Of a DNA stretch of 64,000 nt, positions 53,148 through 54,184 are shown in pieces. Position 1 is the stretch's first letter; every line of letters begins with the position of its first letter. A model generated the notes under the pieces. It was given only the letters and a program-made list of their open reading frames with translations. It searched no databases and was not told the DNA's origin. Source of the stretch: Boothiomyces macroporosus (lineage: Eukaryota; Chytridiomycota; Chytridiomycetes; Rhizophydiales; Terramycetaceae); assembly GCA_027604185.1 (NCBI GenBank), contig JADGKB010000040.1:47706-111705 (forward strand), read 5' to 3'. The position numbers were made by a program, and so were the translations under genes.

Positions 53148-54184
53148 ATGGTTAAAGTCGCAGTCTTAGGAGCCGCAGGTATTCACCGGCTAACGTAGGT
53201 GGCATCGGTCAACCACTCTCTTTATTAATCAAAACCAACCCATTGGTTACTGAATTGGCCTTGTTCGATATTGTCAACACTCCAGGTAACCATTCTCTAA
53301 CGTAGGTGTTGCAGCAGATCTTTCTCACATCAATACCCCTGCAGTTGTCAAGGGTTATGTTGGAGATGATCAAATTGCTGAAGCTCTTACTGGTTGCCAT
53401 ATTGTTGTCATCCCAGGTAGAGATCAACTAATTGTTAGCCGGTGTTCCAAGAAAGCCTGGCATGACCAGAGACGATTTGTTCAACATCAATGCAGGAATC
53501 GTCCGTAACTTGGCTGCTCAATGTGCAAAGTGAGATCAATCAATTAACCGCAGACATTGCCCAAAAGCGTTCATGGCCATCATCTCCAACCCAGTCAACT
53601 CTACTGTCCCAATCGTATCTGAAGTATTTAAGAAGGCAGGAGTTTATGATCCAAAGAGAATCTTTGGTGTTACTACTCTTGATATCACCAGAGCAAACAC
53701 CTTTGTCTCACAATTAAAGAACACTTCTCCACTAGAAACTGAAGTAACTGTTATTGGTGGTCATTCTGGTGCAACCATTATCCCAGTTCTTTCCACTCTT
53801 AGCCACAGTTTCTCTGACTCAGAACGCGACTCATTGGTTAACAGAATCCAATTCGGTGGTGATGAAGTTGTAAAGGCAAAGAATGGTGCTGGATCTGCTA
53901 CTTTGTCCATGGCCTTTGCCGGTGCCAGATTTGTCTCTTCATTATTGAACGCCTCTGTCGCAAAGAAGGCTGGAGTGAGAGAGTGCACATTCATCAACAC
54001 TAACGTCGCTGATGGTTTGGAATTCTTCTCGACTATTGTTGAATTGGGACCAAATGGTGTTGAAAAAGTCCACCCAATTCCAAAGTTGTCCGAATACGAA
54101 CAAGGGCTCTACAATGCTGCTGTCCCAGAACTCAAGAACAGCATCCAAAAAGGGATCGAATTTGTAGCAAAGGCTTCCTTGTAA
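53148..54184 (+). CDS. MDH: Malate dehydrogenase (NAD-dependent)
   Basis: Interconverts malate and oxaloacetate. Exons 53148-53178, 53199-53285, 53306-53416, 53439-53529 and 53554-54184 (introns 20, 20, 22 and 24 nt) give 316 residues. The NAD loop GAAGGIGQPL (residues 8-17) is split by the first intron. Then come [55 protein letters not shown], and the catalytic His in [12 protein letters not shown]. The sequence is of the mitochondrial/bacterial type, but the N-terminus starts directly at MVKVAVLG without a presequence. It may be cytosolic or glyoxysomal; the C-terminus (KASL) is not a clear PTS1. The first exon is only 31 nt. Confidence 0.97.

Follow-up and report, generated by a model that had tools for sequence, protein, structure and literature searches.

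Predicted introns of about 20 nt in the chytrid Boothiomyces macroporosus and the minimum distance between their 5′ splice site and branch point

Interrupted genes of the window

The malate dehydrogenase (MDH) gene of Boothiomyces macroporosus is interrupted by four segments of 20, 20, 22 and 24 nt and lies in a stretch of 64,000 nt (C40:47706-111705 of the assembly, called the window below) that holds many further genes of this kind (Table 1). After removal of the four segments the predicted protein aligns gap-free with the two closest relatives among the matches listed, a JGI metagenome protein (84% identity) and the protein of Globomyces pollinis-pini (83%). The introns described here are predictions of our own two-strand Viterbi gene finder, which was trained on the same DNA and covers coding regions as opposed to UTRs. 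In its simplest form it combines codon scores with a constant intron penalty, accepts only GT and AG as boundaries and treats all lengths from 10 to 200 nt alike. With a flat length distribution all four MDH introns were recovered with exactly the boundaries given by the sequence-only reading, and so were the eight introns of 20 nt that it had placed in the ETF-QO and N-myristoyltransferase (NMT) genes, four in each. In the same run a false intron of 196 nt joined MDH to its downstream neighbor, an error that disappeared once the length was capped at 40 nt.

At the final setting of the finder (intron length of 12–40 nt allowed, learned signals, flat length distribution) we observed 88 introns in the window, of which 87 are 18–24 nt long and a single one (12247-12271, 25 nt) falls outside this range. 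A stricter intron penalty gave 79 introns and a looser one 102, so the earlier count of about 109 somewhat exceeds ours. The finder predicted 41 spliced proteins in the window; ten of these, picked as recognizable families, were submitted to Pfam and all ten have domains above the cut-off. Table 1 contains 85 of the 88 introns, the remaining three being located in genes of less than 450 nt. Judged by eye, the four genes between 17710 and 22252 encode similar hydrophobic proteins in a row, perhaps a tandem membrane-protein family. Rfam and ARAGORN searches of the 64-kb window gave no matches.

Table 1. Genes of the window with their predicted introns (positions within the window)
Feature	Position	Strand	Introns	Basis and remarks
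Malate dehydrogenase (MDH) gene	53148-54184	+		Spliced product 316 aa
MDH intron 1 (20 nt)	53179-53198	+		No indel within 4 aa in 114/117 homologues
MDH intron 2 (20 nt)	53286-53305	+		No indel within 4 aa in 117/120 homologues
MDH intron 3 (22 nt)	53417-53438	+		No indel within 4 aa in 120/120 homologues
MDH intron 4 (24 nt)	53530-53553	+		No indel within 4 aa in 118/120 homologues
HECT-domain gene	3-1300	+	325-342, 772-790, 1123-1141	Gene finder, Pfam
NIPA transporter gene	1362-2520	-	2354-2375	Gene finder, Pfam
Predicted gene	2912-3389	+	3297-3318	Gene finder
Amidophosphoribosyltransferase gene	3413-5095	-	3629-3649, 3862-3883, 4434-4454, 4564-4584, 4722-4741, 4828-4848, 4979-4999	117-120/120 homologues indel-free within 4 aa at each of 7 junctions
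Replication factor C subunit gene	6534-7571	+	6566-6586, 7104-7125, 7450-7469	Gene finder, Pfam
Peptidyl-tRNA hydrolase 2 gene	8869-9441	+	9240-9259, 9373-9391	Gene finder, Pfam
Three adjacent, similar kinase-like genes	9443-12561	-	Gene 1: 9512-9532, 9794-9814, 9940-9959; gene 2: 10712-10731, 11023-11042, 11168-11186; gene 3: 11966-11985, 12247-12271, 12397-12416	Gene finder; first a protein kinase by Pfam, others by eye
Four genes	17710-22252	+	17998-18016; 19001-19020; 20642-20661, 20882-20903; 21835-21854	Gene finder
Predicted gene	22358-23737	+	22509-22530, 23296-23315	Gene finder
Predicted gene	24854-28671	+	25013-25032, 25125-25143, 25219-25237, 26240-26259, 27147-27166	Gene finder
Predicted gene	28982-30366	+	29853-29872, 30040-30060	Gene finder
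Predicted gene	30382-31295	-	30645-30664	Gene finder
Indoleamine 2,3-dioxygenase-type gene	31418-32718	-	31877-31896, 32222-32241, 32499-32520	Gene finder, Pfam
Predicted gene	34839-37392	-	34926-34946, 35499-35519, 36567-36588	Gene finder
ETF-QO gene	38170-40055	+	38468-38487, 38760-38779, 39387-39406, 39866-39885 (all 20 nt)	Gene finder; Pfam ETF-QO domains; 806 bits to 2gmh_A
N-myristoyltransferase (NMT) gene	40082-41349	-	40424-40443, 40612-40631, 41026-41045, 41138-41157 (all 20 nt)	Gene finder; Pfam NMT; 443 bits to 4c2x_A
Predicted gene	41667-42820	+	42150-42168, 42532-42550	Gene finder
Predicted gene	44656-45769	-	45159-45177	Gene finder
Long gene (12 introns)	46156-52988	+	46363-46384, 46598-46618, 46843-46861, 46971-46991, 47172-47192, 49221-49241, 49335-49356, 49461-49481, 50447-50466, 51533-51554, 51703-51722, 52046-52066	Gene finder
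Predicted gene	54234-55216	+	54412-54431, 54824-54844	Gene finder
IF-2B family gene	55255-56335	-	55401-55420, 55607-55627, 55858-55877	Gene finder, Pfam
Predicted gene	56362-57497	-	56550-56570, 57385-57404	Gene finder
Predicted gene	57915-58399	+	58124-58146	Gene finder
Predicted gene	59201-60872	-	59540-59558, 60654-60674	Gene finder
Predicted gene	62200-63824	-	63718-63737	Gene finder

Intron size in the assembly and conserved junctions

The assembly comprises 15,203,306 bases in 216 contigs. We analyzed the window together with 20 stretches of 10 kb taken from the contigs C1-C20, in total 264 kb or 1.7% of the genome. A regex length scan compared with dinucleotide-shuffled sequence showed an excess at 19–22 nt, which can be taken as a first hint only. 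The GT/AG-only finder, which has no length preference, inferred 156 introns, among them 87 of 19–22 nt (12, 35, 22 and 18 at 19, 20, 21 and 22 nt, respectively), 97 of 15–26 nt and 53 above 40 nt. When GT and AG were replaced by five decoy boundary pairs the same finder returned 124–144 ‘introns’ in the 264 kb, with 16–27 instead of 97 at 15–26 nt and no length peak for any of the pairs. GTA starts and a YTAAY motif near the 3′ end emerged in the short introns although the finder required neither, the exact YTAAY being present in 63 of 94. Donor, branch and acceptor matrices were learned from these 94 introns and used with the length prior still flat, which gave 264 introns, 209 of them 19–24 nt long; two letter-swapped decoys gave 4 and 7 in this length range. 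At the final setting we obtained 357 introns in 172 predicted genes. The size range of 18–24 nt contains 346 of them with a peak at 20 nt (1, 51, 154, 75, 51, 12 and 2 introns from 18 to 24 nt), compared to only 9–16 ‘introns’ for three decoys, and the other 11 are found at 15 nt (two), 16 nt (one), 25 nt (two) and 29–40 nt (six).

The 20 stretches from other contigs hold the same size class as the window, and the claim that ultra-short introns occur genome-wide is thus borne out. Extrapolated from 1.7% of the sequence, the genome would contain ∼19,900 introns and ∼9,900 predicted genes. The intron density is 1.7 per kb of coding sequence, and from 199,401 coding bases, 357 introns and 172 genes a mean coding exon of several hundred nt results. 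Genes like ETF-QO and NMT with only 20-nt introns number two among the 36 genes with at least four introns, which is close to the ∼0.9 expected according to a hand estimate based on 44% of introns at 20 nt. Within one gene the lengths are more alike than by chance, as only 5 of 2000 shuffles reach the within-gene variance observed in 89 genes.

Much longer introns elsewhere in the genome would have spoken against this picture. A first decoy test for them was discarded as unfair to the decoys, because decoy models bridge real 20-nt introns by long false ones. In the fair version the real short introns are modeled and decoy boundaries are applied to the long ones only. We observed 60 GT-AG candidates of 31–250 nt, compared to 31, 30 and 11 for the decoys. 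However, 34 of these have one boundary in common with a short intron and 15 extend over the end of a gene, leaving 11 in the 264 kb of coding regions searched, which is within the decoy range of 11–31. Implanted introns of 40–200 nt were recovered in 73–94 of 120 trials, a rate at which any sizeable class of long introns should have become visible. In coding regions, nearly all introns are therefore ultra-short, with no long class visible beside them.

Protein homology supports the introns as well. We regarded a junction as clean if homologues show no indel within 4 aa of it, counting homologues for 14 introns in three genes and judging eight more from printed alignments. In total 20 of 22 junctions in MDH, amidophosphoribosyltransferase, SF1, ETF-QO and NMT are clean, in line with the proposal that conserved protein families are restored by intron removal. 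The alignment of ETF-QO with 2gmh_A, read by eye, has no indel near any of the four junctions; for NMT and 4c2x_A three junctions are clean and the third (aa 226) is located at one-residue gaps. The SF1 junctions are indel-free in 22/120, 119/120 and 116/119 homologues, the first being situated in a variable stretch. Relatives of the same family (Terramyces and Boothiomyces belong to the Terramycetaceae; Rhizophydiales, Chytridiomycota) offer a closer comparison. The SF1 encoded on contig C3 is identical at 462 of 467 positions to that of Boothiomyces sp. JEL0838, whose record of 467 aa is gap-free against our product after excision of 24, 22 and 21 nt; hence either an independent annotation cut the same segments, or the relative has no introns there. 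Our amidophosphoribosyltransferase shares 93% identity with that of Terramyces sp. JEL0728, and this record is 7 aa longer. The sole gap, GICYLTL, is found at junction 369.3 and coincides with the 22-nt intron 3862-3883 on the minus strand. Back-translated by hand, GICYLTL fits a 21-nt GT-AG intron with a YTAAC branch, the branch A at position 15 and a 6-nt tail. It is likely, judging from the protein record rather than its DNA, that GICYLTL is a tiny intron left in as coding sequence. Public gene models of close relatives thus already seem to contain such introns.

Interrupted reading frames alone cannot discriminate introns from assembly indels, programmed frameshifts or translational hops, and segments of 20 and 22 nt do shift the frame. 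The absence of a length peak for decoy boundaries nevertheless argues against such a reading, as do the common GTA, YTAAY and YAG at fixed spacing, the in-frame stop found in 71 of 75 phased 21-nt segments, the existence of matching snRNAs (see below) and the independent SF1 annotation that yields the same protein. We consider its probability next to negligible; pre-mRNAs are presumably spliced at the predicted sites. Stop codons also affect detection: implants of 21 nt were recovered in 105 of 120 cases with a stop and in 27 of 120 without. Selection for in-frame stops in introns of 3n length is for this reason not claimed, the residual P of ∼0.015 depending on a hand-derived expected share.

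Intron signals and the position of the branch site

The sequence-only reading had described a consensus GTA...YTAAY...AG with the branch A close to the 3′ end. This is what we found: A at +3 has a frequency of 0.92 and the last intron base lies 4–7 nt, mostly 5–6 nt, after the branch A. Among the 346 introns of 18–24 nt GTAATT (49) and GTAAGT (22) are the most frequent starts, the donor is AG/GTAAT-like with T (0.45) or G (0.20) at +5, and the 3′ ends are TAG (233), CAG (71), AAG (38) and GAG (4). Introns have a GC content of 29% compared to 40% in coding sequence, and 146, 123 and 70 of them are in phases 0, 1 and 2 (7 unassigned). The T content is 44% between donor and branch and 31% after the branch. 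As the latter stretch is short and not T-rich, the 346 introns neither show a polypyrimidine tract past the branch nor have the space for one. U12-type introns have an RTATCC donor and a TCCTTAAC branch, both unlike the learned consensus.

An exact YTAAY is present in 221 of the 346 introns. If the last YTAAY of each intron is taken, with no distance prior, 214 of the 221 place the branch A at positions 14–18 and 7 at 8–11, with none at 12-13. For the 214 introns in which the exact YTAAY is the best-scoring branch site, the A is found at 14, 15, 16, 17 and 18 in 92, 90, 22, 8 and 2 cases and never lower, and the tail after it measures 4, 5, 6 and 7 nt in 6, 90, 101 and 17 cases. The two distances are uncorrelated (r = -0.01) and the variance of intron length (1.16) matches, within error, the sum of their variances (1.17), hence there is no sign of a ruler for total length. 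Two separate spacings are constrained, rather than the total intron length.

The lower edge of the first spacing is also visible with no gene models at all. Scanning the 264 kb for GTA..YTAAY..AG with a tail of 5-6 nt we counted 94, 85, 26 and 12 matches with the A at 14–17, compared to 6, 5, 14, 5, 4 and 1 at 8–13 and 2–9 at each position from 18 to 40; reversed sequences gave 3–15 throughout. At position 10 the 14 matches exceed the neighboring values of 4–6. In the whole genome GTAAN{6,7}TTAACN{2,3}TAG, with the A at 14-15, has 352 matches (reversed-pattern control: 29), whereas GTAAN{4,5}TTAACN{2,3}TAG, with the A at 12-13, has 2 (control: 34). A looser pattern of 18–50 nt is not enriched in total over the whole genome (580 matches versus 930 for the reversed control); among its first 100 matches listed, 78 are 20–24 nt, 22 are 26–47 nt and none is 18-19 nt long. 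The sharp feature is therefore a minimum distance between 5′ splice site and branch, with a step between the A at 13 and at 14.

The shape of this distribution bears on its origin. The lower edge is abrupt (1 match at position 13, 94 at position 14), and the upper side tails off across several positions. We therefore suppose that deletion pressure pushes the introns against a barrier, as has likewise been suggested for mikrocytids (PMC10245619). Alternatively, the narrow size could be actively favored, for instance because it speeds up splicing, and a mode at 20 nt with few introns above 23 nt would suit such an optimum; however, a step on one side and a decay on the other is the form of a barrier, and we consider an optimum rather unlikely.

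Splicing components and comparison with other ultra-short introns

We searched the genome for the snRNAs U1, U2 and U6 and the proteins SF1, U2AF65, Slu7, Prp18 and Cwc25. All eight parts were found (three of three snRNAs, five of five proteins), two of them with scores under the family cut-offs. U2 is present in two copies (142 and 135 bits) with GUAGUA, U6 (62 bits) has ACAGAGA, and U1 reaches 68.8 bits, just below the Rfam cut-off of 69.5, with the 5′ end AUACUUACCU. The recognition motifs of all three are canonical, and U1 and U2 match full-length models. The intron donors have mainly T at +5 rather than the U1-pairing G, despite this canonical U1 5′ end. SF1 contains helix-hairpin, KH and two zinc-knuckle stretches, the U2AF65-like protein has three RRM stretches although its unspliced genome match of 231 bits remains under the TIGR01642 cut-off of 310, and Cwc25 starts, at its likely start, with MGGG, so that the N-terminal GGG is kept. 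A loss of Slu7, Prp18 or U2AF65 had been expected because the space between branch and AG is small and lacks a tract; this is ruled out, since all three were found. The comparison of U2, SF1 and U2AF proposed in the sequence-only reading accordingly gave all three, with a canonical U2 motif and the said reservation for U2AF65. Several contigs carry equal matches at constant offsets (C3 +21.6 kb, C2 +42.6 kb, C10 +53.7 kb, C20 +45 kb), and an equal Cwc25 match is located on both C49 and C100; such repeated matches would reflect large duplications or assembly artefacts.

Taken together, these are very probably U2-type (GU-AG) introns that have shrunk genome-wide to 19–23 nt against a hard floor in the distance from 5′ site to branch, and are served by an otherwise conventional spliceosome. 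The U2-type class appears appropriate given the GT...AG ends, a donor matched by U1 (with a weak +5 G and a U1 just under its cut-off) and a branch predicted to pair with U2. The 5′ splice site GUA(A) would be recognized by U1 with its canonical 5′ end, YUAAY by the canonical U2, and the AG ending 5-6 nt past the branch A would serve as 3′ splice site, with two limits acting separately, 14–18 nt from 5′ site to branch A (floor 14) and 4–7 nt from branch A to the end. U6 would pair to +4 to +6 of the intron and U2 to a 7-nt branch heptamer. With the A at 14, as in 117 of 346 introns, two bases remain between +6 and the start of the heptamer, which would leave barely enough room for both helices in their customary extent, and the floor may correspond to the closest approach of the U6/5′-site and U2/branch helices. 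Several observations weigh against the overall reading: the matches with the A at position 10, the 7 introns whose last YTAAY puts the A at 8–11, the looser pattern that is not enriched, the unclean junctions in SF1 and NMT, the U1 and U2AF65 scores, the T at +5 and the similar lengths within genes.

The sequence-only reading had instead proposed a spliceosome adapted to a fixed intron size. Such a machine measuring a total of ∼20 nt would explain the very narrow length range and the likeness of lengths within genes (5/2000), the distance lies far under the human minimum of ∼50 nt (PMC6692369), and an adaptation could reside in parts outside the eight sought (Prp8, SF3b, U4, U5, Isy1, Yju2, RED, Smu1). 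However, neither spacing depends on the other and the length variance is accounted for by the sum of the two, all eight parts are present and the known recognition motifs are canonical. What stands of the proposal is the short, constrained spacings, and a total-length ruler is distinctly unlikely.

According to PMC6692369, splicing in human extract is likewise limited by the distance between 5′ site and branch and not by total length, with a minimum of ∼50 nt, which makes the chytrid minimum more than threefold smaller. According to the same source, U6 and the intron form a helix of 17 nt in the human B complex. As this helix cannot fit beside the branch helix here, the term ‘conventional spliceosome’ holds less well for the B-complex step. 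On such introns assembly might take place across exons, or U1 might leave first. In the former case U1 and U2 would assemble across exons and the tri-snRNP would be handed over, so that they never meet on a 14-nt spacing; assembly in human extract stops at a spacing of 35 nt (PMC6692369), and a mean coding exon of several hundred nt is short enough for cross-exon contact. Single-intron genes would then require cap- or tail-bound partners, though, and intron definition is regarded as the mode of genomes whose introns are short and whose exons are long (PMC5014332); we consider exon definition improbable. Returning to the two helices, one tentative possibility is that a conventional spliceosome can physically go no lower than this floor. 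As long as both helices are canonical, branching would then require a distance of 14 nt or more between the 5′ end and the branch A, two bases beyond what the helices themselves take up. Lower values would then be reached only with weakened helices or a lost Cwc25 plug (Stentor, A at 10), and the human ∼50 nt would not be intrinsic.

The size of 19–23 nt is near the lower limit known for spliceosomal introns, as the sequence-only reading had noted; the known systems compared here range from 15 to about 25 nt. Chlorarachniophyte nucleomorphs have AT-rich introns of this size class by the hundreds per genome (18–21 nt in Bigelowiella natans, 18–24 nt including Gymnochlora; PMC6461891, PMC4035089). 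However, these are described with no obvious branch motif, shrunken U1/U5 and a relict genome of 373 kb (PMC6461891), whereas the chytrid, a fungal host, has a strong YTAAY and U1 and U2 that match full-length models. In Stentor coeruleus all annotated introns are ultra-short (15-16 nt) and all snRNAs are present, but the branch A is at 10 or 11 with a weak consensus, compared to 14–18 and a strong one here, and its Cwc25 is reported to lack the Gly motif that the chytrid keeps as GGG (PMC9505925). The weak or missing branch site of nucleomorphs and Stentor is thus not shared by the chytrid, with its strong consensus at a fixed distance. Mikrocytos mackini has similarly short and uniform introns of 16-17 nt, but only 224 of them and 17–19 identified spliceosomal proteins (PMC10245619), compared to the extrapolated ∼20,000 introns in the chytrid, which shows no loss among the few factors sought. 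Paramecium introns are also ultra-short genome-wide (∼25 nt) and stop-rich if of 3n length (PMC5014332); those of the chytrid are shorter, and their stop excess is confounded by detection. Among fungi, chytrids generally keep many introns, as observed here, and the mean intron of Cryptococcus neoformans is 63 nt, about three times the size in our chytrid (PMC8476143); the consulted text of this survey of 644 genomes mentions no such ultra-short class. In the open-licence PMC literature, as distinct from subscription papers, we found no report of ultra-short introns in chytrids. Within this scope, a fungus that combines ultra-short introns and strong branch sites with splicing components of ordinary appearance would be new.

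For annotation the result is a warning that gene models can retain tiny introns as protein, as is likely for Terramyces. The assemblies of Rhizophydium megarrhizum (15.3 Mb) show ∼76% BUSCO and one MAG 40.5% at the protein level, and in the consulted text of that report the word ‘intron’ appears only in a program option (PMC13391722). If this species shares 20-nt introns, unrecognized introns may explain part of the low BUSCO values. Most descriptions of minimal introns concern ciliates, relict nuclei and parasites whose spliceosomes are diverged or reduced. The chytrid, with an extrapolated ∼20,000 introns of 19–23 nt, clear branch sites and seemingly ordinary splicing components, is a case for asking how the limit is set, and the rise from 2 matches with the A at 12-13 to 352 with the A at 14-15 provides a number that is open to structural and reporter testing.
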